34,270 bases of DNA. Origin: Verrucomicrobiota bacterium. GTDB taxonomy: Bacteria; Verrucomicrobiota; Kiritimatiellia; UBA8416; SLMC01. The stretch lies in contig JASEHE010000009.1 in NCBI GenBank assembly GCA_030018915.1, positions 1 through 34,270 on the forward strand, written 5' to 3'. Below, in pieces: positions 2,746-34,270 of the stretch. Under the pieces are notes generated by a model that did no database searches, was not told where the DNA came from, and saw only the letters and a list, made by a program, of their open reading frames with translations. How positions within the stretch are numbered: position 1 is the stretch's first letter; each line of letters starts with the position of its first letter. A program made the position numbers and the translations under genes.

Positions 2746-2845
2746 GACCGGGGCCATGGACCAGAAGCCGTTGCCTCCGGGCCGGGGAGCGGCTCATCAT
2801 GCGTCGCGGGTTCGACGCGCGACAAAGCAACACGCAATATTCCAC

Positions 2846-3502
2846 CTATTCATCCAGGTCGCGCGCCTCAACGGCAACCGTTCGCGCCTTGGCGACCTTG
2901 CCGCGGACCACGCCGGCAGTCTGTTCGTCGCCCAGGAAAATCTTGATGACGCGGATATTCTCGCGGCACCCGGGAATCTTGACTTTCTCGAAAAGGTTGA
3001 CGCGTTGCGCGGTGACGCGCAGTTCTTCGGCGATCCTGTCGCGCTGGTTACGCAGTATTTGCCGCTCAACGCGAAGACGGATCAGCTTGTCCATCATCTC
3101 CTGGGCGTCGTCGAACCAGGGCGGGGTCGTGAAGAGGTCGAGAACGTTGCGGACAACGGTCACGTCGCGCAGGATGGGAATGCTGACGCCGGCGATATTG
3201 CTCGCGTCGGTAGCAACCGCTTTCAGCGTGACGAGTCCCTCGATCGGCTGGGCCGGCGCGGCTTCGCAAGGGGCGTGAACCTCGGCCTGCGCGTCCGACG
3301 CAAAGAGGCCCACCCAGCGTTCCAGGTCGTTTCGGAGACCGGACTCCACTCGATGCTTCTCCTCGATCTTGTGGTCAATCGCCTGAATCTCGGCCTGGAG
3401 TTGCTGCTTTTTGAGCAGGAGTATGGGCAGAAAGCGCAGGTAGCGCGCGAGCGCCTCGCGCTGCGCCTTCAGCTCGTTCTTGGTGTGCTTGATCTGTGCC
3501 AT
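2846..3502 (-). CDS. atpD: V-type ATP synthase subunit D (central stalk)
   Basis: Subunit D is the central rotor shaft, an antiparallel coiled coil that enters the A3B3 head. The 218-residue protein begins MAQIKHTKNELKAQREAL and continues as a long Leu- and Gln-rich helix (RYLRFLPILLLKKQQLQAE). It ends with a second long helix (LRVERQILRNQRDRIAEELR), which is the typical D-subunit layout and length. Start ATG 3502 fits the family N-terminus, but its ribosome binding site is weak. It is separated from B by an unusual 268-base gap and from I by about 100 bases. That second gap holds a perfect 6-base-stem hairpin at 2803-2823 (GTCGCG/CGCGAC, 9-base loop). Confidence 0.93.
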   Translation of the reverse strand: MAQIKHTKNELKAQREALARYLRFLPILLLKKQQLQAEIQAIDHKIEEKHRVESGLRNDLERWVGLFASDAQAEVHAPCEAAPAQPIEGLVTLKAVATDASNIAGVSIPILRDVTVVRNVLDLFTTPPWFDDAQEMMDKLIRLRVERQILRNQRDRIAEELRVTAQRVNLFEKVKIPGCRENIRVIKIFLGDEQTAGVVRGKVAKARTVAVEARDLDE

Positions 3503-3770
3503 GTTGGAACTCTACTTGATTTCTGATTATCCAGAAAGAGATTCAGGCTGCTGGTGAAATTTGTCTGTTCCGCGCCCGAAAAAGAGACGTTCTTTTGCAG
3601 CCCGATCCTCTGGAGTTCGAGAAGCTGGTGGATGGTCTGTCGAACAGCAAAACGATGAATCCAAGTTCCCTGTATCGGCCTTCATTTTTCGGTTCCCTTC
3701 TCTGTTTCAGCATCCATCAGTGTTGGACATCTCCGTGTCACTAATCGGCGCGACACCAACCGACCACCGA
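3503..3770. other. AT-richer gap inside the V-ATPase operon, ending in an ACCGA-word repeat
   Basis: This 268-base spacer splits the B and D genes, which are otherwise tightly packed. By hand count 3521-3690 is about 48% GC, well below its neighbours. Near its B-side end, words of the type ACCGA recur (3757-3790), and TAATCGG (3742-3748) faces CCGATTA (3767-3773) as a perfect 7-base inverted repeat. The B stop codon lies inside the right arm, so the last B residues are encoded by the repeat. A 52-codon minus-strand frame (start 3685, stop 3527) and an open plus-strand frame (from about 3519) both exist, and neither is recognisable. It may be an inserted or decayed sequence. Confidence 0.5.
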
Positions 3771-5102
3771 TTACCGACCGTTGCTTACCGATGAGATCGG
3801 CGTTTCCTTCTTTGCGGGCCAGAACTTCTCGATCAGCCGTGTGGGGATGCCGGTCTCCATGGGCTCGAAGCAGTCGGCCAGGATCTCCCACCCGAGGTCA
3901 AGCGCCTGTTCCAGCGGGATGTTCACCGAGAGGTCCATCATCTCTTTTTCGAACCGCTCGCCGTATCGGAGAAGCTTGTTGTCCCACTCGCTGGCGCGGA
4001 AGCCCATGGAACGCTTTTCCACGCTTTCGTTGTGGCCGGCATAGAGCTGGATCAGGGTGTTCATGATCGCGCGATGGTCTTCGCGGGTTTTCCCGTTGAC
4101 CTGCTGCTTCAGGCGGCTGAGCGAGCCGAACGGCTCGATGCGGCCTTCGCGAAGGTAGAATTGGCCCTCGGTGATATAGCCGGTGTTGTCCGGGACGGGG
4201 TGGGTGACGTCGTCGCCCGGCATAGTGGTGGCCGCGAGAATGGTGATCGATCCCGAGGTGTCGAAGTCAACGGCTTTCTCGTAGCGCACAGCGAGCTGAC
4301 TGTACAGGTCGCCGGGATAGCCGCGGTTCGATGGGACCTGTTCCATGGTGATGGCGATCTCCTTCATGGCGTTCGAGAAATTGGTCATGTCGGTCAGGAG
4401 CACGAGCACGCGCTTGTTCTGGAGCGCGAACTGCTCGGCGACGGCCAGGCTGATGTCCGGCACGAGCAGGCATTCGACGATCGGGTCCGCCGCGGTGTGG
4501 ATGAACATCACGGTGCGCGAGATCGCGCCGTTTTCCTCCAGATTGTCGCGGAAGAACAGGTAGTCGTCGTGCTTCAAGCCCATTCCGCCGAGGATGATGA
4601 CGTCCACCTCGGCCTGCAGGGCAATGCGCGCGAGCAGCGGGTTATACGGCTCGCCCGCCCGGGCAAAGATGGGGAGCTTCTGGGATTCGACCAGGCTGTT
4701 GAACACGTCAATCATGGGAATGCCGGTCCGCACCATTTTGTCTGGAATGATCCGCTTGGCCGGGTTGACTGGTGGCCCGCCGATCTCGATGAGGTTCTCG
4801 GACAGGGCTGGCCCCTTGTCGCGGGGCGTGGCGCCGCCCGTGAACACGCGGCCGAGCAGAGCGTCCGAAAATGGCACGCGCATGGCGTGGCCCAGGAAAC
4901 GAATCTGAGCGTCGGTCGTCACCCCGCTGGCGCCGGCAAAGACTTGGAGGGAGACCTCGTCGTTGTTCAGGCGAATGACCTGTGCGCGCGATGTGCCCGC
5001 GCGCGAAGAGACCTCGGCCAGTTCGCGGTATTTCACGTCGCCGGCGCGGACGTTGATGACGTTTCCGGCAATCCGGTCCACTCGATGGTAGAGCCTACGC
5101 AT
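3771..5102 (-). CDS. atpB: V-type ATP synthase subunit B (non-catalytic nucleotide-binding subunit)
   Basis: B alternates with A in the soluble V1 head and has a structural/regulatory nucleotide site. The 443 residues start [20 protein letters not shown]. They contain the B-specific stretches [20 protein letters not shown]-like (here [18 protein letters not shown]), [39 protein letters not shown] and [15 protein letters not shown]. The classical P-loop is absent, as expected for B. Start ATG 5102 lies eight bases inside the end of the A gene (A stop TAG 5095-5097), so the two are translationally coupled; longer upstream readings run antisense-like through A and are rejected. The C-terminus (SSVSNGR) runs into the ACCGA-word repeat of the following gap. 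Confidence 0.96.
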
Positions 5103-6828
5103 GGGCAGTCGCCTCCGTGACCATGTTCTCGATTCTTTCCTGAAGCGTCTTGAACTCCGGGTCGTCCATGGCCGCGCGGTTCCACTCTTTGGTGGTCTGG
5201 GTGAGCTGGTGGAAAAATCGCCTGGCGGCGGTCTTGTCCGGGAAATGCGTCGGAGCGCGCAGGATGGCGCCAATCACCCCGAACATGTGGCGCTGCCGCT
5301 CGGCCGTCGAGGCGCCGTCCACCTTATCATAGGCGTCCTGCTGCAGATAAGAGTCGTCGAGGTATTCGGCTTTCAGGTAGGTGACGAAGTCGTCCATCGA
5401 GGTGCCTTCCTCTCCGACGACCTTCATCATCTGGCCGACTTCGTTGCCGGCGCGCAGGGTTCGGCGGGCCGTCTCAACTTCGTCGCGGGAAACCACGCCA
5501 GCGTATTTGCTCCAACTGTCCAGCGGATCAATGGCCGGGTAGCGCCGCGCGTCCGAGCGGGCGCGGGACAGGCCGTGGAAGGCGCCGACGACCTTGAGGG
5601 TGGCCTGAGTTACGGGTTCGTCGAAATTGCCGCCGGCCGGACTGATCGTTCCGCCGATCGTCACGGAGCCCGTGGCGCCGTTCTTGAGCCGGACGCCGCC
5701 GCCTCGCTCGTAGAAGTTGGCGATGACGGAATCCAGGTAGGCGGGGAACGCCTCCTCGCCCGGGATTTCCTCGAGGCGGCCGGAGGTTTCGCGCAGCGCC
5801 TGTGCCCAGCGCGAGGTCGAGTCGGCCAGCAGCAGCACGTTGAGCGACATCTGGCGGTAGTACTCCGCGATGGTGACGGCCGTATAAACGGAAGCTTCGC
5901 GCGCAGCCACCGGCATGGCGCTGGTGTTGCAGATGATGACGGTTCGCTCCATGAGGCTCCGGCCGGTGCGCGGGTCGATGAGGCGGGGGAACTCGCGGAG
6001 CGTCTCGACGATCTCGCCCGCGCGCTCGCCGCAAGCCGCGATCACGACAATATCCACGTCGGCGTGGCGACTCGTGATCTGCTGGAGCACCGTCTTGCCG
6101 GCTCCGAACGGGCCGGGAATGCAATAAGCGCCGCCGCGGGCAACGGGGAAGAACGTGTCAATGATCCGCACCTTGGTCACCAGCGGTTCGGTCGGGCGAA
6201 GCCGCTCGGCATACAGGCGAATCGGGAAACGAACCGGCCATCGCTGGACCATGGCGACCGATCGCTCGACGCCTTGCGCGTCGAGCAGCCGCGCGATTTC
6301 CAGGTCCGCCGTGTAGGCGCCGGCTGGCGCGATTTGGGCGACCTTGAACGCGCCGGTGAGGCCGAATGGAACCATGACGCGATGCGTGAAAATACCTTCC
6401 GGCACGCTCCCGAGCGGGTCGCCGGCGACCACCGAGTCGCCGACTTTGACTTCGGGCGTGAAGTCCCATCGGCGGTCGCGGGGAAGGGCCGGGAGGCGCG
6501 CGCCGCGCCGCAGGAAAAATCCGCACATTTCCGCGAGGCGCGGCAGAGGGTTCTGGAGCCCGTCAAAGACCTGCGCAAGCAGGCCGGGGCCCAGTTCGAC
6601 CGACAGCAGATTGCCGGAGAACTCGACGCGGTCGCCCACGCCCAGGCCCGCGGTGTCTTCGAACACCTGGAGGTCCGCCCGGGTCCCGCGCACGCGGACC
6701 ACCTCGGACATCAGTCCGACGTCGCCCAGTTTGGCGAAGGCCACTTCGTTCTGGCCGACAACTCCATCGAATTTCACGGTGATCATGTTGCCTGTGACGC
6801 CGATTATGGTTCCTGTTGTCCGGCTCAT
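5095..6828 (-). CDS. atpA: V-type ATP synthase subunit A (catalytic)
   Basis: A is the catalytic ATPase subunit of V1. The 577 residues have an N-terminal beta-barrel ([15 protein letters not shown]) and the extra 'non-homologous' region typical of V/A-type A subunits (about 110-190). Walker A, GPFGAGKT, is at residues 239-246 inside [19 protein letters not shown]. Further on come [17 protein letters not shown] and [19 protein letters not shown]-type motifs. Start ATG 6828 gives the usual N-terminus ([10 protein letters not shown]) and lies four bases after the stop of the upstream DUF2764 gene, so both are probably read from one transcript. The 3' end overlaps B by eight bases. Length is normal for the bacterial V-type family. 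Confidence 0.97.
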
Positions 6829-6832
6829 CGCG

Positions 6833-7387
6833 CTATTCCCGGCCGGTCGCCGGCCTCGTGTTGTTTTCGGAGTCGCGGTTCACAAGTTTGTCGACCCGTT
6901 CGCGGCCCGCTTCTGGATTCATGGCGGCCCATCGCTCGACAAGTTTCAGTTTGAGGGCGTAGGCGAGAAGCGCGGCGCCCGTGAAAGGGTCGAAGCCGGC
7001 CAGTTCATCAAGGATCGTCCAACGCAGACGGTCGAGCGCCCGTTCTCTCTCCGCCGGTGTCGGCCGTGAAAAAGCCTCTGCCACGCGTTTCTCAATCAGA
7101 AGGTCCACGCCGTTCTGCGGGCGAACGTCGGCTTCCGAATCCTGCCGCAGGCGGCCGGCGCGCAGGCGGACAACCGCGTTGCGGACCTGCGTATCCTTGT
7201 TGCACCAGGTCCGAACAAACGCCGACCGCGATTCCGGACGCGCGCGCCTCAGGAGCTCCTCCAATGCGCGCAGGTCCGCAGCTCGGAGATGCTCCCGGCA
7301 GAGGCTGAGGAACCGGTCAAAGGAGAGTGGCGGCGGCGCATCGAGGGAAAGCGCCGGCAAACTGGCCGCGAAGAAATAGTAGCCCAT
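6833..7387 (-). CDS. DUF2764-like protein of the V-ATPase operon
   Basis: The 184-residue protein begins MGYYFFAASLPALSLDAPPP and is followed by LSFDRFLSLCREHL. I recognise this opening from DUF2764 proteins, which occupy the same place, between E and A, in V-ATPase operons of Chlamydiae and relatives. It is helical, Arg- and Leu-rich and has no membrane segment or signal peptide. No separate C or F subunit gene is seen in this operon, so the protein may stand in for one of them (probably C, the adaptor between stator or rotor and head); that is inference from position only. Start ATG 7387 gives the family N-terminus. The stop precedes the A start by four bases. Confidence 0.78.
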   Translation of the reverse strand: MGYYFFAASLPALSLDAPPPLSFDRFLSLCREHLRAADLRALEELLRRARPESRSAFVRTWCNKDTQVRNAVVRLRAGRLRQDSEADVRPQNGVDLLIEKRVAEAFSRPTPAERERALDRLRWTILDELAGFDPFTGAALLAYALKLKLVERWAAMNPEAGRERVDKLVNRDSENNTRPATGRE

Positions 7388-7401
7388 GTGAAATATCCGG
7401 C

Positions 7402-8022
7402 CTACCGCGGACCGCCGGCCGAGCGCACGATCTCCGCCAGGCGCGGCCGCGCGATTTGGCAGAGCGCGTCCACAATGGCGTCCTGCGTGAAGTCGTGTTC
7501 GACGTTTTGACCTTTGACGCGCGCCTTGAATCCGCGCAGGATCGAGCCGTCCGCCTTGATCTCGACCCCTTGCTTCAACTCGCGGACGAACTGGGCCATC
7601 AGCGAATCCGCCAGCTTATTCCGGTCGTCCTGGCTCAGAAGAAGCTCGATTCCGCCTCCGCCGGCTCCGCTGCGGCCGTAGACTTCGACGGCCTTGAGCA
7701 GAATCGAACGCAGGGCATCCTCGCGCAACGCCTGGCCGACGTCCCGACGGACGATCTCGCGCAGAACGGCGTTTAGCGCCTCGCCGATCAAGAGGATAAC
7801 GTCCCGGGCGGCTTGTTCGAGGGTCTTGCGGCCGCGTTCCACGGACTCGCGCGCCGCCCGGTCAACGTCGGCCCGCTTGGCCCGGGCTTCTTGTTCGGCT
7901 TGGGCGACGAGCGCGCCGGCCTTTTGCCGGGCGGCGTCGAGGATGCGCGCGGCTTCAGCCTGGGCCTTGTCGGCGCCGTCTTTCTTGATTCGTTCCAGGA
8001 GACTTTGGAGTTCTTCCGCCAT
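7402..8022 (-). CDS. atpE: V-type ATP synthase subunit E (peripheral stalk)
   Basis: Subunit E is the peripheral stalk that holds the V1 head to subunit I. The 206 residues show a long Ala-, Glu- and Arg-rich N-terminal helix (MAEELQSLLERIKKDG, then AEAARILDAARQKAGALVAQ). A small globular C-terminal domain starting near residue 105 follows. I chose ATG 8022. A GTG at 8076, overlapping the stop of the oxidoreductase gene, would add 18 residues (MTVQPIRPVRPG...) that do not look like the family. The intergenic distance to the upstream oxidoreductase is therefore about 50 bases, short enough for co-transcription. The Gly-rich loop GRSGAGGGG near residue 120 is slightly unusual. Confidence 0.9.
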   Translation of the reverse strand: MAEELQSLLERIKKDGADKAQAEAARILDAARQKAGALVAQAEQEARAKRADVDRAARESVERGRKTLEQAARDVILLIGEALNAVLREIVRRDVGQALREDALRSILLKAVEVYGRSGAGGGGIELLLSQDDRNKLADSLMAQFVRELKQGVEIKADGSILRGFKARVKGQNVEHDFTQDAIVDALCQIARPRLAEIVRSAGGPR

Positions 8023-8072
8023 TGCATCGCTCGCTTTCCATCCCGGACGGACCGGGCGGATAGGTTGAACCG

Positions 8073-11000
8073 TCACATGCCGGCCATTTTCCGGAGCCGC
8101 TCGTAGCGGGCCGCCGTCAGCTTGTCGGCTTCTTCGAGGAGCTTCTTGGAAATCTCCGGATCGGTTTTCGCGAGGATTTTGAACCGGTTCTCCTTGAGCG
8201 CGTGTTCGCTGAACTTCATGGTCGGCGCGCCGCTGTCAAGGATCAGCGGATTTTTGCCGTCTTGTACCAGCGCCGGGTTGTAGCGGTAAAGCGGGAAATG
8301 GCCGGAAAGGACCGCTTCCTTTTCCCGCTCGAGCCCCTTGCGCATGTCAATACCGTGCGCGATGCAATGGGAGTAGGCAATGATCAGGGAAGGTCCGTTG
8401 TATGCCTCGGCTTCCACGAACGCCCTGACGACCTGATTGCGGTTGGCGCCCATGGCGACCGTGGCCACATACACGTTGCCGCAGGTCATGGCCATGAGGC
8501 CGAGCTCCTTTTTCATCGCCGGCTTGCCGGCTGCCGCGAACTTGGCCACCGCGCCCATCGGAGTGGACTTGGAGGCCTGGCCGCCGGTGTTGGAATACAC
8601 TTCGGTATCCAGCACCAGGACGTTGATATTTCGGCCGGAGGCCAGCACGTGGTCGAGGCCGCCGTAGCCGATGTCGTAGGCCCAGCCGTCCCCGCCGAGC
8701 GCCCAGACGGATTTCTTGACCAGGTAGTCCGCGACCGAGCGGAGCGCATCGCATGCCTCGCAGGGGCAGGCCGCCAGCCACGTCTTCAACTCGGCGACCC
8801 GGCCGCGCTGTTCCTCGATGGCGGCCTGGGACGATTGGTCCGCGCTCTTGATGGCGTCGAACAGGTCCGCCGGAACGTTCTTGCAGCCGGGCGAACCCAA
8901 GAGAATCCTGTCGAGAAGTTCCCGAGCGTACTCATTGAACTTGTCCACGGCCAGGCGCATGCCGAAGCCGAACTCGGCGTTGTCCTCGAACAGCGAATTG
9001 GACCAGGTCGGCCCGCGGCCGTCGCCGCGCTTGCAATATGGCGTGGTGGGCAGATTGCCGCCGTAAATCGAGGAGCAGCCGGTGGCGTTTCCGATCATGG
9101 CGCGATCGCCGAAGAGCTGGGTAAGCAGCTTGACGTAAGGGGTCTCGCCGCAGCCGGCGCAGGCGCCGGAGAACTCGAACAGGGCCGTGGAAAGCTGGCT
9201 GCCCTTCACCGTCGCCTTGTCGTAGAGTTTCGGATCGAGCTCGGGAATCTTGAGGAAGAATTCGAAGTTCTTCGCTTCCCGCTCACGCAGCGGAATTTGT
9301 GGCGCCATGTTGACGGCGCGCCGGCCGGTTTCCTGCTTGGTCGCCTTGTCCCGCTCGCGGCCCGGACAGGTTTCGACGCACACGCCGCAACCGGCGCAAT
9401 CCTCGGGCGCGACCTGAACCGTGAATTTCCTGCCCTCGAAGCCCTTGCCCCTGGCATCGAGCGATCGAAACGCCGGCGGGGCGCTCTCGAGCGCGGCCGG
9501 CTCATAGACTTTCACGCGAATCGCGGCGTGCGGGCACACCAGCGAGCAGGCGGCGCACTGGATGCAAAGCTCTGGGGCCCACTCCGGGATTTCCACGGCG
9601 ATGTTGCGCTTCTCGTATCGCGTGGTGCCGATGGGCCATGTGCCGTCGTCCGGCATCTTGCTCACGGGCAGCAGGTCGCCTTCCCGCCGCATGATGACGG
9701 CGGTGACGTTCTTCACGAAGTCCGGCGCATCGGCCGGAACAGTGGGCGGCATCTTGATCTTGCCCGCCGGCTTGGCCGGGACCTGAACTTTATGCAGGGC
9801 GGACAGGGCGGCGTCCACCACCCGGAAGTTGCTCCGGACAACGTCTTCGCCCTTCTTGCCGTAGGTCTTCTTGATGGCGCTTTTGAGCGACTCGACGGCT
9901 TTGTCGCTCGGCAGAACGCCGGACAGCGCGAAGAAGCAGGTCTGCATGATCGTGTTGATGCGCGCGCCCAGTCCGTGCTCGGCGGCCAGTTTCACCGCGT
10001 CGATCACGTAGAACCGAATCTTCCCGGCGATTATCCGCCGCTCGACCTCGTCGGGCATGTGGTCCCAAATCTCGTCGGCTGGGTAGTGGGAGGCCAGCAA
10101 AAACACGGCGCCCGGTTTGGCGTTGGAGAGCATATCGCATTTTTCCAGGAAGGAGAAATTGTGGCAGGCCACGAAGTCGGCCTGAGCGCACAGGTAGGGG
10201 CTGCGGATGACGCCAGGTCCGAAGCGGAGGTGCGAAACGGTCATGGCGCCGGCCTTCTTGGAGTCATAGACAAAGTAGCCCTGCGCAAAGTTGTCGGTGT
10301 CGTCGCCGATGATCTTGATCGAGTTCTTGTTGGCCCCGACGGTGCCGTCCGAGCCGAGCCCGTAGAACATGCACTCGACGCGGCCGTTCTGGGGAATCTG
10401 CCAGCCGTGGTCCACGTCGAGACTTTGATGCGTGACGTCGTCAACAATGCCGACGGTGAAATGCTTCTTCGGCGCCTGGGCGCCGAGGTTGTCGAACACG
10501 GCCTTGACCATGGCGGGCGTGAAGTCCTTGGAACCGAGGCCGTAGCGGCCGCCTTGGACCACGGGACAGTCCTTGCCCTTGAGCCACTTGTTCTCCATCG
10601 CTTCGCCGAGGGCGGCGCGGATGTCGGTGTAGAGCGGTTCGCCTACAGCGCCCGGCTCCTTTGTGCGGTCGAGCGCCGCAATGGCCTTGACGCCGGCCGG
10701 CAGAGCGTCCACGAAGGCTTTCGCGTCGAACGGTCGGTAGAGCCGCACCTTGACCACGCCGACCTTTTCGCCGTGGGACACTAAGCGCTCGACGGTCTCG
10801 TGGACCGTTTCGGCGGCCGAGCATATAACCACGGCCACGCGGTCCGCGTCCGGCGCGCCCACATAGTCGAAGAGGCGATACGCGCGGCCGGTGAGCTTGG
10901 CCAATCGGTCCATGGCCTTCTGGACGATGGCCGGCGTGGCGGCGTAGTACTTGTTAACGGTCTCCCGGCCCTGGAAGTAGACGTCCGGGTTCTGCGCGGC

Positions 11001-11657
11001 GCCGCGCAGGATCGGGGCGTCCGGAGTCATCCCGCGCCCGCGGTGGGCAAGGACGAGCTTCTCGGCGATCATGGCGCGCAGGACGTCGCGGGAGACCATT
11101 TCGATTTTCTGGACCTCGTGCGACGTGCGGAACCCGTCGAAGAAATGAAGGAACGGCACGCGGGATTCCAGGGTGGCCGCGTGAGCGATCGCGGCAAGGT
11201 CGCAGACTTCCTGAACGCTCGCCGACGCGATGAGGGCGTACCCCGTCTGGCGGACGGCCATGACGTCGGAGTGATCGCCGAAAATGGAAAGCGCCTGGCA
11301 GGCGAGCGAGCGAGCCGTGACGTGAAACACGGTCGGGGCGAGTTCGCCGGCGATCTTGTACATGCTGGGGATCATGAGCAGAAGCCCCTGGGAGGCGGTG
11401 AAAGTCGTGCAGAGCGCGCCGGAGGTGAGGGCGCCGTGCAGGGCGCCGGCTGCCCCGCCCTCGGATTGCATCTCGACGACCTGTGGAATGGTTCCCCAGA
11501 TGTTGGCGACGCCGCCCGCGCTGAGTTCGTCCGCGGTCTCTCCCATGGGCGAAGACGGCGTGATGGGGTAAATGGCGCAGACTTCGCTCAGAGCGTGGGC
11601 CACCGTGGCGGCCGCCGTGTTGCCGTCAATCATCACGACGTTTTTTTCTTTGGACAT
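8073..11657 (-). CDS. nifJ: pyruvate:ferredoxin (flavodoxin) oxidoreductase, single-chain
   Basis: The enzyme converts pyruvate and CoA to acetyl-CoA, CO2 and reduced ferredoxin in the cytoplasm, a hallmark of anaerobic metabolism. The 1194 residues carry all domains in the usual order. The pyruvate-binding domain comes first (MIDGNTAAATVAHALSEV, YPITPSSPMGE), then the gamma and CoA-binding domains. Two 4Fe-4S motifs follow, CIQCAACSLVCP near residue 694 and CAGCGVCVETCP near 752. Last is the thiamine diphosphate domain, with CAGCGETPYVKLLTQLFGDR, GDGWAYDIGYGG near 986 and TEVYSNTGGQASKSTPMGA. Start ATG 11657 is preceded by AGGAAACAATC, a fair ribosome binding site. Next on the same strand is subunit E of the V-ATPase, only about 50 bases away. 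Full length, with no sign of damage. Confidence 0.97.
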   Translation of the reverse strand: MSKEKNVVMIDGNTAAATVAHALSEVCAIYPITPSSPMGETADELSAGGVANIWGTIPQVVEMQSEGGAAGALHGALTSGALCTTFTASQGLLLMIPSMYKIAGELAPTVFHVTARSLACQALSIFGDHSDVMAVRQTGYALIASASVQEVCDLAAIAHAATLESRVPFLHFFDGFRTSHEVQKIEMVSRDVLRAMIAEKLVLAHRGRGMTPDAPILRGAAQNPDVYFQGRETVNKYYAATPAIVQKAMDRLAKLTGRAYRLFDYVGAPDADRVAVVICSAAETVHETVERLVSHGEKVGVVKVRLYRPFDAKAFVDALPAGVKAIAALDRTKEPGAVGEPLYTDIRAALGEAMENKWLKGKDCPVVQGGRYGLGSKDFTPAMVKAVFDNLGAQAPKKHFTVGIVDDVTHQSLDVDHGWQIPQNGRVECMFYGLGSDGTVGANKNSIKIIGDDTDNFAQGYFVYDSKKAGAMTVSHLRFGPGVIRSPYLCAQADFVACHNFSFLEKCDMLSNAKPGAVFLLASHYPADEIWDHMPDEVERRIIAGKIRFYVIDAVKLAAEHGLGARINTIMQTCFFALSGVLPSDKAVESLKSAIKKTYGKKGEDVVRSNFRVVDAALSALHKVQVPAKPAGKIKMPPTVPADAPDFVKNVTAVIMRREGDLLPVSKMPDDGTWPIGTTRYEKRNIAVEIPEWAPELCIQCAACSLVCPHAAIRVKVYEPAALESAPPAFRSLDARGKGFEGRKFTVQVAPEDCAGCGVCVETCPGRERDKATKQETGRRAVNMAPQIPLREREAKNFEFFLKIPELDPKLYDKATVKGSQLSTALFEFSGACAGCGETPYVKLLTQLFGDRAMIGNATGCSSIYGGNLPTTPYCKRGDGRGPTWSNSLFEDNAEFGFGMRLAVDKFNEYARELLDRILLGSPGCKNVPADLFDAIKSADQSSQAAIEEQRGRVAELKTWLAACPCEACDALRSVADYLVKKSVWALGGDGWAYDIGYGGLDHVLASGRNINVLVLDTEVYSNTGGQASKSTPMGAVAKFAAAGKPAMKKELGLMAMTCGNVYVATVAMGANRNQVVRAFVEAEAYNGPSLIIAYSHCIAHGIDMRKGLEREKEAVLSGHFPLYRYNPALVQDGKNPLILDSGAPTMKFSEHALKENRFKILAKTDPEISKKLLEEADKLTAARYERLRKMAGM

Positions 11658-12006: not shown

Positions 12007-14445
<2,439 letters not shown>

Positions 14446-14446
14446 C

Positions 14447-16936
14447 ATGGCGACCGAGAAAGAGAACCCGCCCCAGCCGCCCGAGCCGTCTCCGCCAGCC
14501 AACCTCGGCTACATCAACATTGATGAGGAGATGCGCTCCTCCTACATTGACTACTCGATGAGCGTCATCGTGGGCCGCGCCCTGCCGGATGCCCGGGACG
14601 GGCTCAAGCCGGTGCACCGCCGCGTGCTCTACGCCATGCGCGAGTTGGGCAACACGCACAACCGGCCGTTCAAGAAATCCGCCCGCGTGGTCGGCGACGT
14701 CATCGGCAAATACCACCCGCACGGCGACCAGGCAGCCTACGACACGCTGGTGCGCATGGCCCAGGATTTCTCGCTCCGCTACCCGCTTGTCGAGGGCCAA
14801 GGGAACTTCGGCTCCATTGACGGCGATCCGCCGGCTGCCATGCGGTACACCGAGGTCCGCATGCACCTGCTTGCCGAGGAAATGCTCGGCGACATCGAGA
14901 AGGAAACCGTCGCCTTCACCCCAAACTACAACAACGAGTTCCTCGAACCCAGAATCCTGCCGGGCCGTCTGCCGAACCTTCTGCTCAACGGCTCCACCGG
15001 CATTGCCGTGGGCATGGCCACGAACATCCCGCCGCACAACGCGAACGAGACCGTGGACGCGCTCGTCCACCTCGTTGACAACCCCGAAGCCACAGTGGAC
15101 GACCTGATGAAGTTCATCAAAGGCCCCGACTTCCCCACCGGCGGCGTCATCTGTGGGGCCGACGGCATCCGGAACATGTATCGCGCGGGCAAGGGCCAGA
15201 TGACGGTCCGCGGCCGCGCCCACATTGACGAGACCAAGAGCGGCAAGGAGATCATTCTCATCACGGAGATTCCCTACGCGGTCAACAAGGCCAGCCTCAT
15301 CGAAACAATCGCCGAGCTGGTCAACGACAAGACGATCGAGGGCATCTCCGATATCCGCGACGAATCCAACAAGGAGGGCATCCGGATCGTCATTGACCTG
15401 AAGCGCGGCGGAGTGTCCAAGGTGGTCCTGAACGCGCTCTACAAGCACACTCAGCTCGAGACGACCTTCGGCGCCATTCTGCTCGCCCTCGACCACGGCG
15501 CGCCCAAGATCATGAATCTCAAGGAGCTGAGCCAGTGTTTCATCCGGCACCGTTTCGAGGTCGTTACCCGCCGCGCGCGATTCGATCTCGCCAAGGCCGA
15601 GACCCGCGCCCACATTCTCGAGGGGCTCAAGATCGCGCTCGACAACCTCGACGCCGTCGTCAAGACCATTCGGGCCGCCAAGAACCGCGACGACGCCCGG
15701 ACGAATCTCATGGGCAAGTTCCGCCTCAGCGAGGCGCAAGCCAACGCCATCCTCGACGTGCGCCTCTATCAGCTCACTGGCCTCGAGCGCGAGAAGGTTG
15801 ACCAGGAGTACCTCGAAGTCATCAAGAATATCTCCTCCCTCAAGGACCTTCTGGCCAACGAATGGAAGATTTACGCCGTCATCAAGCAGGAACTGCTCGA
15901 AATCAAGCAGAGATACGGCGACGGCCGCCGCACCGACATCGCGCCCGCCGAGGGCGAGATGAACGTCGAGGACCTCATCGCCGACCGCGGCTGCGTCATC
16001 ACGATCAGCCATCGCGGCTACATCAAGCGCGTGCCGACCGACACCTACAAAGCCCAGCGCCGCGGCGGCAAAGGCGTGGCCGGCATGACCACGAAGGAGG
16101 AGGATTTCGTCGAGCATCTTTTCGTCGCCAACACACACGACTACATCCTGTTCTTCACCGCGCGCGGTCGGGTGTACTGGGAGAAGGTCTACGAGATTCC
16201 CGAGGCGGGCCGCACCGCCGCCGGCAAGGCGATCGTCAACCTGCTCAATGTTCAGGGCGACGATAAAATTGCCGCCATGATCCGAGTTCGGGAATTCGAG
16301 GAAACCAAACACCTCGTCATGGCCACCGCCGGGGGCACGGTCAGAAAGACCAACCTGTCGGAGTTCGGCAACCCGCGCAGCGGCGGCATCATTGCCATCA
16401 ATATTGAGGAGGGCGACCGACTGATGGCCGTCAAGATGACGGACGGCGCGAACGACGTCATGCTTACGACCCGCCGGGGCATGAGCATCCGCTTCGGCGA
16501 GAAACTGCTCCGCGACATGGGCCGGGCCACCTACGGTGTCAAAGGCGTCAGACTCGTCAAGCACGATTTCGTGGAGAGCATGGAGATCGTGAACCCGCAA
16601 GCCACGCTGTTGACCTGCACGGAGAACGGCTACGGCAAACGCACGAGCTTCGACGAATACCCCGTCCAGGGCCGCGGCGGCAAAGGCGTGATCGCCATCC
16701 GAACCTCGGACCGCAACGGCGTGGTCGTCGGCGCGCACTCGGTGATGGGAACCGACGCCCTCATGCTTATCACGGCCAAGGGCAAGATGATCCGGCTGCC
16801 CGTGAGCGACATCCGTGTGATCGGCCGCGCCACGCAGGGCGTCCGACTCATCAATCTCGACGAGGGCGACAAGCTCGTCTGCGCCACCATCGTGGAACCC
16901 GAGGACGAGTCTGCGCCGCTTCCGCCGCCGACCTGA
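14447..16936 (+). CDS. gyrA: DNA gyrase subunit A
   Basis: This is the DNA-cleaving and wrapping subunit of gyrase. The 829 residues contain the catalytic Tyr134 (AAMRYTEVR) and the winged-helix region [20 protein letters not shown]. The C-terminal beta-pinwheel has the GyrA box QRRGGKG at 537-543, which marks a true gyrase rather than ParC. The residue equivalent to E. coli Ser83 is Gln95, while Asp87 is conserved as Asp99. Start ATG 14447 follows the gyrB stop by one base, so the two are co-transcribed and probably translationally coupled. The Pro-rich N-terminal 18 residues ([11 protein letters not shown]) are an extra tail. The C-terminus is also Pro-rich (SAPLPPPT). The convergent ruvB gene ends 96 bases further on. 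Confidence 0.98.
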
Positions 16937-19987: not shown

Positions 19988-22900
19988 TTGCTTCCTCTCA
20001 CGAAAAAGCGCATAATAACGGAAGCGGCGATTATTACGCGCCGGCAAATTCAAAGAATCCGCATCCTGGCGCTGTGCGCCGGCTTCATCGCAGCCGGCGG
20101 CCTGTGGTTGTATTTGTCCGGCCGGCTTCAGCCGGCCGGCCGCTCGGCCGGCGGACTGCCGGTTCCTGACTCCGCCGAGACGCGGCGAACCGCCCCTCCG
20201 CACTCCGCCGCCGCCACGACGCCTACGCTCTCGGATCGCGCGCTCGCCGCGTGGCTCCGGGACTTTCGCCCGGCCGTTCCACCTGCAGGGGCTTCCTCGG
20301 GGTCATGGCTATGCCTCCAGACGGGATGGATTGACACCGACCGCCTGGGCCCGTCCGATCCGATGTCCCTTGGGCAACCGGTCGAGGCGCAACGGCTTAC
20401 CCCACGCGGCATGCTACCAGCGATCGTCCAGTTCAACGGGCCGGTGGGGGCCGCCGATCGCGCGCGATTGGAGCGCGCCGGCCTGATCCCGCGCGGTTAC
20501 CTCCCACGGAACGCCTTCCTCGTCGAGGGAAACATAGACCGCCTGGATGCGTTCCGCTCCGAGCCGGGCGCGCGCTGGATCGGGTGTTACCCGCCGCCGC
20601 TCAAGATCGAGCCGTTCCTCCAGACATTGCCCCGGACATGGAGCCGCCACGAGACGACGCCTTTCGATCCGGCGCTCCGCCTGCCGGTGACGATCCAGAC
20701 CCTGGCGCCTGACGACGTCGGTATGGTCGCCGATCGCGTAGCAGCGGCCGGCGGCCGCGCGCTTGCCAGCGCGGCAGGCCGACGCTGGGGTCTCGTGCGG
20801 GCCGAGATTCCCTGGCAGGCCGTGGAATCCCTGGCCGCCGAGGGCGCCGTTCAATGGATCGAGGTCTACCTTGCCCCGCGACTGGTCAACAACGTGGCGG
20901 TCCGGCCGGACATGATGAACGCCACCAACGTGTGGCTCACTCACGGTCTCACGGGGGCCAACCAGGTGATCGGTCATGCCGACACCGGCCTGGACGTGGG
21001 CAATCTGAGCTCGCTGCATCCCGATCTGCGAAACCGGATCAAAACCGCCATCGCGCTCGGCCGGCCGGGCGATTGGAGCGATCCGCACGGGCACGGCACG
21101 CACACCGCCGGGTCCATCCTGGGCGAAGGCGTGGCCAGTGCGGGCGCCATCAAGGGCGTGGCATTTGGCGCGCGGTTGGTCCACCAGTCCGTGCTCGACG
21201 CCGGCGGCGGCCTCGGCGGCCTGCCCGCCGACTTGAACGATCTCTTTCCTCAGGCCTACACCAATGGCGCGCGGCTCCATTCCGACAGTTGGGGCTCCTC
21301 CTCCTACGGCCGGTACACCATGGATTCCCGCCACTGCGACAAGTTCATGTGGGATCATCCCGACATGCTTCTGGTTTTCTCGGCTGGTAACGACGGCGCC
21401 GATGCCGACGCCAACGGCGTGGTGGACCCCGATTCCATCGGCGCGCCGGCCACAGCCAAGAGCGCGCTCACGATCGGCGCATCGGAGAGCAACCGGCCGC
21501 CTGGCTCCGAGAGCTACTCCAGCTACACGTGGGGCAGCGCCTGGCCCTGGGACTATCCGGCCAACCCGATTGCCGGCGACTACCTCTCCCGGCCCGCGGA
21601 TGGGATTCATCAAGGCTTGGCGGGCTTTTCCAGCCGCGGCCCCACCGTCGACGGCCGAATCAAACCGGACCTTGTGGCGCCCGGCGTGAACATCGTGTCC
21701 TGCCGCTCGCTCCTGGCCGGCGCCGGAATCGGCTGGGGCGTCTACGCGGCAAACGCGAACTACGTCTTCTCGGGCGGCACGAGCATGTCCGCCCCACTGG
21801 CGGCTGGCGCTGCCGCCGTCGCGCGGGAGTTCTACGCCACCCGGCGCGGCCTCGCCAACCCATCCGCCGCGCTCGTCAAGGCCTGTCTGCTCAACGGCGC
21901 CCGCTCACTCTCGCCCGGCCAGTATGGCGTCGGCGTCGGCCGGGAGATTCCTGACGCCGCGCCGAATCCGGTCGAGGGCTGGGGGCAGGTTGACATCGAG
22001 CGCGCGCTCTTCCCGCCGCCCGGCGAATACGTCGCCGAGGACGACGCCTCCGCCCCGCTCCAGACCGGCGCCACGAACCGGTTCGTCTTCGTCGTGTCCG
22101 AGACCAATCGTGAATTGAGTCTCATCGCGGCTTGGTCCGACTACCCCGCGACGGCGGGCGCCGCCGTCACGCTCGTCAACGACCTGGACCTGCGTCTCCG
22201 CGCCCCGAACGGCGAAGTCTACTGGGCAACCCCCGGCGGGGGCGATCGGACCAACCCGGTGGAAACGATCGTCCTCACGCCGCCGGTCACGGGCGTCTAT
22301 ACCGCCGAGGTGTTCGGCGCGAACGTGCCATATGGCCCACAGCCCTGCGCCCTGATCGTTCGCGGCGCCATTCAAGTTCCGCCGGTTATCGAGCATACGC
22401 CGCTGGACAACACGTTCGTCACCAACGTCCCCTACGATGTCGTGGCTGGGATCACGTGCCTCACGCCGTTCGATTCCAATTCCGTGGCCGTCTTCTGGAA
22501 TACCGTGGGCGTAACCGGCGCCTTCAGCCAGGTGGTCATGACGCAGCGCGTGGACAGCCTCTTCGCAGCCGCTCTGCCGCCACAGGGTTTCGGCGCAACC
22601 GCCCACTACTACTTGTCCGCCGGCCTGGCGCCAGCGGCTACGACCCACCCGTCCGACGCGCCGGCAACGCTCCACTCGTTCTCCATCACTGTCCAGCGCG
22701 CGCTGGTCGTATCGGGTTCTCCGTCAGAGCTGCTCACCGTTACGCCACCCTACGGGTCCAACATCATCGCCGATGGCGCGGCCGTCACGGCAACAGCGAC
22801 GGCCTACAGCAACACCTCCCCAACCACGCGCATCGCCTGCGCCGGCTGGACCGGCGCCGGGAGCGCGCCCGCCTCAGGCACGAACGCGTCTGTCGGTTTC

Positions 22901-25129
22901 GTCATTACCGCGGACTCCACCTTGACCTGGAACTGGGTCCAGCAGTATTCCCTGTCGCAGACCAGCTCGATCGCGGGTGTGCTCGGCACGCAGACCTGGT
23001 GGACGGCTCTTGCCGCCGCCGGCACGGCGCTGGCGCCTTCTTCGGCCTCGGTCACCGGCGTGGTCTATCGGTTCACCGGCTGGTGGGTGGACGGACAGCG
23101 ACAGCCGGACGACACCTCGCCCGCCGTGAATCCCGCCGGCGCTCTCACAATGGAGGCCCCGCGCGTCGCGCTCGCCGCGTACCTGCCAGAAAGCCAGGAC
23201 GCCGATGCCGACACGCTTCCCGACTGGTGGGAATTTTTCTACTTCGGCTCCACGAACGCGATCCAAAACATGGACGACGATAACGACGGATTCACCAACC
23301 GCGAGGAATACCTGGACGGCGCCAACCCGAGAGACTCGAACGACCGTCCGGAAGCTCCCACCATCGCGTTTGCGCCGCTCGCCGATCCGTATCCCGCCCC
23401 AGCGCCCTGGCCGATCCGCGCGACCGTCACGGACAACTGGCAAATTGTTTCGGTTTCCGTCTGGTGGAATCGCAACGGCGGCGGCTGGCAGGAGACAGCT
23501 CTTTCGCGCGACGCCGTGTCCGGAGACTACATTGGCCGGATTCCAGCGCCTGGCACGAACGGGGACTCCGTGGCGTACCGGCTGGAGGCCCTGGATGCGG
23601 CGGACCTGAAGGCCGTGAACGGGCCCTACTCGTTCGAAGCGCGCTATCCAGAGGCGCGCGTCGGCGCCCTCGCCCCTGGCCCCTATCTCCTGCGCGATGG
23701 AACCGCAACCAACGCGTCGCTGATCGTCTCCAACGTCGGATTCGCCACGCTCCAGTGGGCGCTGTCCGAACGCCTCCTGCTCGACGACTTCGAACAGGGA
23801 TCAATCGGGTGGAGCCATAACGGCGCGAACGATGTCTGGCACACGCAGCGGGCGCGTTTCTCCTCCGCCTCCAACGCCTGGCATTTCGGCGGCGGCCCCG
23901 GCGGCAGCTACCCGGACCTCGGCCACGCTTCGCTGGTGTCCACGGCATTCTTCCTGACGACGCCCGCGCAGTTGGTATTCAGCCACTGGGCCGCCATGGA
24001 GTACGACATGGATCAGTTGGACAACCACTACTGGGACGGCGGAATCGTCGAATTGTCCACGAACGGCGGAGTGTCGTTCTTTTCCATCACGCCGCTCGGC
24101 GGCTATCCCCACCTCATCACGGACAACCCCGACTCGCCGTTTCCACCCGAAACTCCTTGCTTCGGGAGCACCACCGGGGAGTGGGCCCAGGCCGTGTTCG
24201 ATCTCTCGCCCTGGACCGGCGTCACGGCTCAGGTCCGGTTTCGTTTCGGCGCCGATGCCTATGTCACGGACGAGGGCTGGTACATTGACGACGTGGCCGT
24301 CACGTCCCTGTCCGGCGACGTGGATTGGTTGACGGCGCCGGCGTCGGGCGTCGTGTCCGCCGGCGGCGTCTCCAACATCCCCATCACGCTGTCCGCTCTG
24401 CCGCTGCTGCCGGCCGATACGCGCTCCGCTGCGCTTCTGCTCACCAACAACAGCCCCATCGCTCCTTGGCGGACCGTCCACCCGTTGACGCTGCACAACA
24501 AGTCCCGCGAGATTCTCGTGACCGTCTCCGCTCACGGCTCCGTGGCGCCCGCCGGCCGTGTGCTGGCGGATTCCGGCTCGTCGGCGTCTTTCCTGATGAC
24601 GGCCGACCCATACTGTCAAGTCGTCTCGGCTCTGACGAACCAGGCCGCCGTGGCCGAGCTGATCGGCGCCACGGCCACGAATTGGACATGGCCGGACGTG
24701 ACGGCCAACGGCGCGCTCGACGTGACGTTCGACTGGATCCGCGTCGTTTGGGACACGCCGCTGTGGTGGTTGGTCGCCTACGGTCTGACCAACGCCGCGC
24801 CTGAGATTGAGGCTGTCGGCGACCAGGACGGCGACGGACTGCTCTCCTGGCAGGAATACTGGGCCAGAACGGACCCGACCAATTCGGCCTCGGTCGCTCT
24901 CCACATCTGGCGGCTTGCGACGCTGTCCACCAACGGCATCAGGCTGGAATGGCTGAGCTTCACCAATGTGACCTACCGCTACGAGGTCTGGACCGCGCGG
25001 GACCCGGCAGCCGGGTTCACCCCGACAATTACGAACCTGCCCGCCACCCCGCCCGTGAACGTCTGGAACAATTGGGCGCTCCCGCCCGAAGGCCGCCAGT
25101 TTTACCGAATCCGCGTCCTTCGGCAGTAG
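19988..25129 (+). CDS. large secreted subtilisin-family (S8) serine protease with accessory domains
   Basis: An exported endoprotease of 1713 residues. One hydrophobic segment (about 26-45, ILALCAGFIAAGGLWLYLSG) follows a basic N-terminus and serves as signal or anchor. The S8 triad is Asp332 (GHADTGLDVG), His372 (HGHGTHTAG) and Ser601 (GGTSMSAP), with oxyanion Asn468 (FSAGNDG). Then come a P-domain-like beta sandwich (about 680-790) and Ig-like segments. An Asp-rich thrombospondin-type linker near 1071 (DADADTLPDWW) and a jelly-roll domain near 1265-1450 (DDFEQGSIGW ... GWYIDDVAV) follow. A second Asp-rich linker near 1612 precedes a C-terminal module ending FYRIRVLRQ. The only early start is TTG 19988 without a clear ribosome binding site, so the true start is uncertain. 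It converges with mutS; the coding ends are five bases apart. Confidence 0.93.
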   Translation: MLPLTKKRIITEAAIITRRQIQRIRILALCAGFIAAGGLWLYLSGRLQPAGRSAGGLPVPDSAETRRTAPPHSAAATTPTLSDRALAAWLRDFRPAVPPAGASSGSWLCLQTGWIDTDRLGPSDPMSLGQPVEAQRLTPRGMLPAIVQFNGPVGAADRARLERAGLIPRGYLPRNAFLVEGNIDRLDAFRSEPGARWIGCYPPPLKIEPFLQTLPRTWSRHETTPFDPALRLPVTIQTLAPDDVGMVADRVAAAGGRALASAAGRRWGLVRAEIPWQAVESLAAEGAVQWIEVYLAPRLVNNVAVRPDMMNATNVWLTHGLTGANQVIGHADTGLDVGNLSSLHPDLRNRIKTAIALGRPGDWSDPHGHGTHTAGSILGEGVASAGAIKGVAFGARLVHQSVLDAGGGLGGLPADLNDLFPQAYTNGARLHSDSWGSSSYGRYTMDSRHCDKFMWDHPDMLLVFSAGNDGADADANGVVDPDSIGAPATAKSALTIGASESNRPPGSESYSSYTWGSAWPWDYPANPIAGDYLSRPADGIHQGLAGFSSRGPTVDGRIKPDLVAPGVNIVSCRSLLAGAGIGWGVYAANANYVFSGGTSMSAPLAAGAAAVAREFYATRRGLANPSAALVKACLLNGARSLSPGQYGVGVGREIPDAAPNPVEGWGQVDIERALFPPPGEYVAEDDASAPLQTGATNRFVFVVSETNRELSLIAAWSDYPATAGAAVTLVNDLDLRLRAPNGEVYWATPGGGDRTNPVETIVLTPPVTGVYTAEVFGANVPYGPQPCALIVRGAIQVPPVIEHTPLDNTFVTNVPYDVVAGITCLTPFDSNSVAVFWNTVGVTGAFSQVVMTQRVDSLFAAALPPQGFGATAHYYLSAGLAPAATTHPSDAPATLHSFSITVQRALVVSGSPSELLTVTPPYGSNIIADGAAVTATATAYSNTSPTTRIACAGWTGAGSAPASGTNASVGFVITADSTLTWNWVQQYSLSQTSSIAGVLGTQTWWTALAAAGTALAPSSASVTGVVYRFTGWWVDGQRQPDDTSPAVNPAGALTMEAPRVALAAYLPESQDADADTLPDWWEFFYFGSTNAIQNMDDDNDGFTNREEYLDGANPRDSNDRPEAPTIAFAPLADPYPAPAPWPIRATVTDNWQIVSVSVWWNRNGGGWQETALSRDAVSGDYIGRIPAPGTNGDSVAYRLEALDAADLKAVNGPYSFEARYPEARVGALAPGPYLLRDGTATNASLIVSNVGFATLQWALSERLLLDDFEQGSIGWSHNGANDVWHTQRARFSSASNAWHFGGGPGGSYPDLGHASLVSTAFFLTTPAQLVFSHWAAMEYDMDQLDNHYWDGGIVELSTNGGVSFFSITPLGGYPHLITDNPDSPFPPETPCFGSTTGEWAQAVFDLSPWTGVTAQVRFRFGADAYVTDEGWYIDDVAVTSLSGDVDWLTAPASGVVSAGGVSNIPITLSALPLLPADTRSAALLLTNNSPIAPWRTVHPLTLHNKSREILVTVSAHGSVAPAGRVLADSGSSASFLMTADPYCQVVSALTNQAAVAELIGATATNWTWPDVTANGALDVTFDWIRVVWDTPLWWLVAYGLTNAAPEIEAVGDQDGDGLLSWQEYWARTDPTNSASVALHIWRLATLSTNGIRLEWLSFTNVTYRYEVWTARDPAAGFTPTITNLPATPPVNVWNNWALPPEGRQFYRIRVLRQ

Positions 25130-33523: not shown

Positions 33524-34270
33524 CTATTGCACCCGCACACGGAAGAATTCCTGACCGACGACTCGGTTCACGTTGACGGTGCGGCTGTTCACGTCCGGCG
33601 TGGCCGGGATGTTGCTGCTCACCGTCACCGGGAACCCGGCCGGCAGATTCGCGCTCCCGTCGATCGCGTAGTGCTTCCCGCCCACGCTCGACCAGCGCAC
33701 CACGAAGTTCGTGCCGGACACGAGCAACCAGTCGCTCACCCTCAGCAGCGAGTTCGCGTCGGTCGGAATCGTTCCGGCCCGCCATTCCGCGTAGTTGTTC
33801 ATCCCATCGCCGTCCGCGTCGTCGTTCGCGCCGCCGTTCGGCGCGTTCGCGCCGCCGAAGTATAGAATCTCCCAGGCGTCCGGCAGTCCGTCCCAGTCCG
33901 CGTCCGGGATCGCCGTCTGGTTCTGATCCGCGCCCACGTCGTAGTAGGGGCCGGCCCGCTCCTCGCCGTCAATGTCGGTCCCCAGTCCGACCGTGCCGCG
34001 GCACCGCGCGCCTATATCCGCGTCAGCCAGATGATAGTCGTTGCTCGCGGCGTTGACAAAGCTCACCGCCTGATTCGCCGCGTTGCCTTCCCGGCCGTCC
34101 GCCCAACCGTCCCATGCCGTTGCCGTCCCGTCCACCGAGACGCAATGACTCGCGTAGGCCGGCGCGCGCCCGCTCCTGCTCATAAATCCGTTCCCCATGT
34201 CCGTCGCGAGGCAGTTCACGTATCGCGCCCGCTCGCGGCTCGGAGCGTCGAACCGCGTCCCCGTGCAATT
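33524..34270 (-). CDS. 3' part of a beta-helix exoprotein (gene continues beyond the window)
   Basis: The frame is open to the right edge, so the N-terminal part is missing. The visible 248 residues start in a right-handed beta-helix type region (NCLATDMGNGFMSRSG, AVSFVNAASNDYHLADADIG, GTDIDGEERAGPYYDVGADQ), as in secreted polysaccharide-binding or lyase-like proteins. An Asp-rich linker follows (IPDADWDGLPDAWEILYFGG, then DDADGDGMNNYAEW). The C-terminal module (SLLRVSDWLLVSGTNFVVRW) ends FFRVRVQ and resembles the tail of the subtilisin-family protein in this window. A GTG at 34219 is internal, not a start. It ends 29 bases before the lipoprotein gene, on the same strand. Confidence 0.8.
   Translation of the reverse strand, partial: NCTGTRFDAPSRERARYVNCLATDMGNGFMSRSGRAPAYASHCVSVDGTATAWDGWADGREGNAANQAVSFVNAASNDYHLADADIGARCRGTVGLGTDIDGEERAGPYYDVGADQNQTAIPDADWDGLPDAWEILYFGGANAPNGGANDDADGDGMNNYAEWRAGTIPTDANSLLRVSDWLLVSGTNFVVRWSSVGGKHYAIDGSANLPAGFPVTVSSNIPATPDVNSRTVNVNRVVGQEFFRVRVQ

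Follow-up and report, generated by a model that had tools for sequence, protein, structure and literature searches.

The 1713-residue subtilase encoded in the window and a second protein at the window's end share a C-terminal module that recurs on the ends of many unrelated exoproteins in this class of bacteria. The module consists of an Asp-rich TSP3 motif followed by a beta domain of about 76 residues, here called the CTD, with the end FYR[IV]xVE. Position and sequence define the family well, and it is nameless in the libraries searched. We suggest that the module serves Sec-exported proteins of this Verrucomicrobiota-like class as a dedicated C-terminal domain for targeting or attachment, a reading to which we assign a probability of roughly one half. 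The window is the whole stretch of DNA that was analyzed, 34,270 nucleotides, and it is an entire contig of a 2.12-Mb draft genome that is 90.5% complete. Upstream of the subtilase gene are genes (window positions 958-8076, 8073-11657, and 12025-16936) which, from reading their sequences, we take to be V/A-type ATPase genes, a pyruvate:ferredoxin oxidoreductase-like gene, and gyrB/gyrA.

The subtilase gene (19988..25129, + strand) is a single open frame with a TTG start. The S8 catalytic domain is located at residues 323-647 (20954..21928, +; Pfam PF00082, E 6.5e-39), and the motifs HGHGTH and GTSMSAP are readable in the sequence. Pfam also places an InhA-like MAM domain at residues 1325-1439. 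There are two TSP3-like Asp-rich segments, so that the first-pass annotation was correct in describing a protease with repeated Asp-rich linkers. The first segment, at about residues 1090-1130 (23255..23377, +), was seen by reading the sequence, and an Amuc_1099-family model matches it at residues 1092-1122. The second, at about residues 1609-1630 (24812..24889, +; alignment A2), stands directly before the CTD (24890..25126, +), whose last residues are FYRIRVLRQ.

The second carrier (33524..34270, - strand) is a protein of 248 residues with its N-terminus cut by the contig end and FFRVRVQ as its last residues. Its layout is the same as that of the subtilase end, with a TSP3 motif (33755..33829, -; a weak PF18884 match at residues 151-172; alignment A1) and then the beta domain (33527..33754, -), which was located with the family profile and an AlphaFold model of the tail. 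The weak TSP3 match is the only one that Pfam gives on the last 248 residues of this protein. With the C-terminal 105 residues of the subtilase as the query, the second carrier was found at E 1.8e-8 with 35% identity, which bears out the proposal that the two proteins share this end, and three more places in the own genome were found at E 1e-4 or better. A 52-row family profile, which includes both window proteins, matches the CTDs of the subtilase and of the second carrier at E 2.6e-19 and 2.6e-22, respectively.

The profile search that the first-pass annotation had suggested extended the family well beyond these two proteins, to 11 places in the own genome and to 94 of 116 class genomes. A profile made from four own-genome tails with the TSP3 motif included (A1) matched the own genome and 19 relatives (20/20), with 3 to 52 matches each, counts that possibly contain TSP3-only matches. 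The relatives are MAGs whose labels read Kiritimatiellae, Lentisphaerae, Verrucomicrobia, or just 'bacterium'; these labels suggest a Kiritimatiellia-like class for the window. The class-wide figure comes from a profile restricted to the beta domain (A3), for which the matches per genome reach at least 48 among the best 49 candidates per genome; in the same search, no module was found in some class genomes, including six of one genus (f25/g27). An improved profile of 52 rows (A6) matched 64 of 194 genomes of the phylum, comprising 44 of the own class and 20 of other classes, and the matches in the other classes are mostly few per genome and weaker. The A6 profile gives 12 own-genome matches at E 0.01 or better, five of them at E 1e-9 or better and the remaining seven between E 1e-4 and 3e-3. 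These correspond to 11 places because one carrier is frameshifted. That carrier (L003, G000:C4:394-692) is split by a frameshift arising either in the organism or in the assembly.

The Asp-rich linker belongs to a repeat type already known, TSP3 (PF18884), and is as such no part of a new signal; the CTD that follows it is a separate domain. A TSP3-like motif is found no more than 45 residues upstream of the CTD in 48 of 59 carriers, so the two behave as one cassette. This would suit the idea that the module has no function of its own, its C-terminal confinement being a relic of acquisition as a 3'-end cassette. We give that idea very little credence, since the motif residues are conserved among CTDs with unrelated passengers: W.S is present in 59/59 CTDs, and W, Y, and N are invariant over the 52 alignment rows. 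The mean column identity of the CTD is 38%.

The position of the CTD at the protein end was examined in 60 loci, drawn from the stronger matches and fetched with their flanks. The CTD ends 0-7 residues before the stop codon in 59 of these. In the own genome and its relatives, 29 of 32 CTDs end 0-9 residues before the stop; of the other three, one (L033) is internal, a second runs into a contig end, and the third is frameshifted and terminal in the other frame. All 11 distinct CTD places in the own genome are terminal. The exception among the 60 (L106) is also internal, making two internal CTDs, and outside the class but within the phylum 24 of 30 CTDs are terminal. These internal and non-terminal cases count against a targeting or attachment function, and a preference for C-termini could by itself stem from the way in which the domain spreads. 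The CTD is, furthermore, single in each protein, with one per frame in 138 of 138 frames by local HMM search, many of these loci being overlapping or redundant.

The main rival explanation is that the CTD is an ordinary FnIII-like accessory module, binding carbohydrate, matrix, or wall, or acting as a stabilizing cap, whose place as the last domain is fortuitous, and that transport is by T2SS without a linear signal. The FnIII-like fold, the lectin-like or Ig-like domains in several passengers, and the occurrence of the T2SS secretin GspD in 116 of 116 class genomes are all in its favor, and we regard it as possible. However, ordinary domains of this kind do not show the same placement. In a control with Pfam fn3 in 12 CTD-rich genomes, 0 of the 30 best loci lie within 12 residues of the stop, against 59/60 for the CTD, and many of the control loci carry the usual strand-G sequence past strand F. 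The single copy per protein also argues against an ordinary accessory module.

The passengers are diverse. Over the residues before the CTD (up to 800) in 59 carriers, the mean column identity is 7%, and 70 Pfam families are found at E 1e-4, including S8 and M12B peptidases, RCC1, LamG, LRR, Calx-beta, and lamin-tail domains. At least 10 frames have both a C25 domain and a CTD, as judged by matching of contig and frame length. C25 (gingipain-family) peptidases are abundant in the class, with up to 10 per genome (G058, G116, G041, and others), and many of them are CTD-bearing. A strongly hydrophobic stretch is present near the N-terminus in 48 of 52 carriers with complete frames, using a crude Kyte-Doolittle cut in place of a signal-peptide predictor. 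These hydrophobic N-termini, which are the basis for the assignment, suggest that the carriers are exported by Sec.

The CTD has no name in the family libraries. Among 30 members of alignment A2, Pfam at E 0.01 named only TSP3_bac (PF18884), in 17 of the 30, and gave no name to the CTD; PF00041 (fn3), which was considered as a name, had no match among them at this threshold. With NCBIfam at 0.1, no T9SS or PEP_CTERM model matched the CTD in 24 members of A3. The first-pass annotation had named a match to a known type IX or PEP-CTERM domain as evidence against its proposal, and neither Pfam nor NCBIfam gives one on the CTD. Two weak NCBIfam matches to enoyl reductase models, in one member each at E about 0.012, were taken as chance.

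The fold was approached by profile comparison and structure prediction. In a search with the CTD profile, the Fn3-like structure 3mpc was matched at E 1.2e-4 over residues 17-74 of its 103-residue chain. The AlphaFold model of the subtilase tail shows six strands with nothing after them (pLDDT 76.4, pTM 0.65), and that of the second carrier tail shows five (pLDDT 77.4, pTM 0.49), both with middling confidence. By our own assignment of letters, the predicted strands of the subtilase tail would fit A, B, C, C', E, and F of FnIII. Of the seven FnIII strands A-B-C-C'-E-F-G, strand G has no predicted counterpart in the CTD, the chain stopping after the F-aligned strand. The Foldseek list for the subtilase tail is mostly FnIII, with no match of either model reaching E 0.001, and VIA-align gives Z values of 4.6 to 5.7 against FnIII and other Ig-like domains among the matches listed, a size that can reflect merely a common arrangement. 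The middling AlphaFold confidence and the Foldseek E-values weigh against the targeting or attachment reading. The FnIII matches leave about the last 16-20 residues of the target domain uncovered, spanning for example residues 12-77 of 96 in 3mpc and 17-81 of 99 in 8bw6. From the 3mpc sequence match together with the structure comparison, the CTD is read as a FnIII-like domain that probably stops after strand F. It resembles bacterial FnIII domains (3mpc, Pfam fn3) in sequence profile and predicted fold, but differs from them in the apparent lack of strand G, in an ATPPxN stretch before strand E, in its terminal position, and in its single copy.

The proposed mechanism for a dedicated targeting or attachment domain is as follows. 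The carrier would be exported by Sec, and its end domain would then be recognized by a partner in the periplasm or at the outer membrane or surface. Subsequently, the end domain would deliver the passenger to the cell surface or hold it there. We infer that the missing strand G may be the working surface, and an open-edged beta domain would be well suited to recognition by a surface partner. In a more specific version, strand G would be absent by design, and a strand of an outer-membrane receptor or translocon would complete the edge in trans, exporting or anchoring up to dozens of proteins per cell. We consider this version rather unlikely as it stands. If it were true, it would be a Verrucomicrobiota secretion or anchoring route with a mechanism parallel to those of T9SS and chaperone-usher systems and with a separate origin.

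Chaperone-usher pilins have an Ig fold without strand G, and the CTD is similar to them in having an Ig-like fold with the last strand apparently missing. In contrast to pilins, the CTD sits on the ends of large enzymes. Ushers (PF00577) were found in 0 of 116 class genomes in a search for which the E. coli control was positive; usher-dependent donor-strand pili were rejected as a route for the CTD. In RgpB, according to PMC4804311, the tail is an Ig-like domain; its last two strands are enough to act as the signal for T9SS, and its last strand can undergo swapping. The discussion of that paper mentions beta-strand complementation in pili. The CTD of T9SS (type A, RgpB) is like the present module in being an Ig-type beta sandwich located at the extreme C-terminus of many unrelated exoproteins, as PMC4804311 describes for the T9SS side.

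These likenesses raise the question of whether the module is a divergent type IX tail exported by T9SS. It is a beta sandwich of about 76 residues at the extreme end, it has many passengers per genome, and C25 peptidases are among them, in addition to the Ig-like nature and C-terminal strand signal of the RgpB tail. However, the module is FnIII-like, is predicted with middling confidence to have six strands (five in the second carrier) and not seven, and has no obligatory C25/PorU partner. T9SS tail models from Pfam and NCBIfam do not match the CTDs. No class genome (0/116) gave a match to the translocon marker SprA_N (PF14349), a result that is uncalibrated since the control genomes also gave 0/14. 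Of the 116 class genomes, 64 have C25 peptidases, the family of PorU. The search found none in five genomes that bear CTDs, namely the own genome, G094 (29 CTD matches on its single contig), G124, G085, and G030. Since these peptidases were not found in CTD-rich genomes, a C25 peptidase is unlikely as the general processing enzyme; a PorU-type partner was rejected on this ground, and many of the C25 peptidases are themselves carriers. Export as a T9SS tail is very improbable, and the parallel with RgpB would be a likeness of mechanism, not membership.

The other widespread C-terminal tag to be weighed is that of the PEP-CTERM/exosortase system, which, like the module, marks many exoproteins and is common in the class. 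In one explanation, the CTD proteins would be part of an exosortase (PEP-CTERM type) surface, docking on PEP-CTERM-anchored partners. Exosortase is found in 103 of the 116 class genomes, and several loci (L040, L044, L045, L175/L204, L176) line up a short CTD protein with a PEP-CTERM-like protein, a large YYYYH-tail protein, and an exosortase. However, a CTD frame is near only 3 of 27 loci with long exosortase frames, and this neighborhood concerns one CTD subtype; 30 exosortase regions had been fetched, of which three gave no exosortase match with the profile used. Furthermore, no exosortase was found in two CTD-bearing genomes, G047 and G064, with 11 and 9 CTD matches, and the CTD is a folded domain. 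No PEP motif, LPXTG-like motif, membrane helix, or basic C-terminus was found in the two window proteins and the 59 fetched CTDs. We consider docking on an exosortase surface quite unlikely, and exosortase was also rejected as a partner, since it occurs without the CTD and was not found in these two CTD-bearing genomes.

The first-pass annotation had also called for a co-occurring sorting enzyme, and on this point it was not borne out. Exosortase is present in CTD-free genomes as well. GspD, with 102 of its 116 matches above the curated cut-off, is found in every class genome and is therefore uninformative as a specific partner. With the T2SS secretin universal and exosortase near-universal, neither stands out as a partner. 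The occurrence of both in module-free genomes, and the lack of any transporter, receptor, or processing enzyme tied to the CTD, are points against the targeting or attachment reading. The annotation's broader claim, that the shared end is an uncatalogued sorting or attachment signal, stands as to the unrelated exoproteins, the C-terminal confinement, and the lack of a match to T9SS, PEP-CTERM, or LPXTG tags. The signal role is the part that we infer.

If a terminal tag marked up to dozens of proteins in a genome, the secretome could be listed from it, and the search for the transporter or receptor would become a concrete genetic question. In the literature searched, with most subscription journals outside its scope, we found no description of this module, which is not proof that it is unpublished, nor of how large exoproteins are exported or held in these polymer-degrading bacteria. 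The words 'secretion' and 'C-terminal' do not occur in the main texts of the Pontiella/Kiritimatiellales papers examined.

The exosortase neighborhoods showed a further feature. A gene row (L040, L044, L045, L175/L204, L178/L205) encodes a large protein with a YYYYH...WTP tail, a short CTD protein, a PEP-CTERM-like protein, and an exosortase frame of about 1350-1410 residues; in L044 and L045, the exosortase frame is fused with TPR repeats. In L176 (G060:C3), an XrtC-like exosortase gene is flanked by three CTD genes, a gene for a large YYYYH-tail protein, and a gene for a small protein ending in a membrane helix. The large neighboring proteins in L042-L045, L175, and L176 share a second C-terminal pattern, L.PG.AYYYYH......F.WTP, which may be another tail family.
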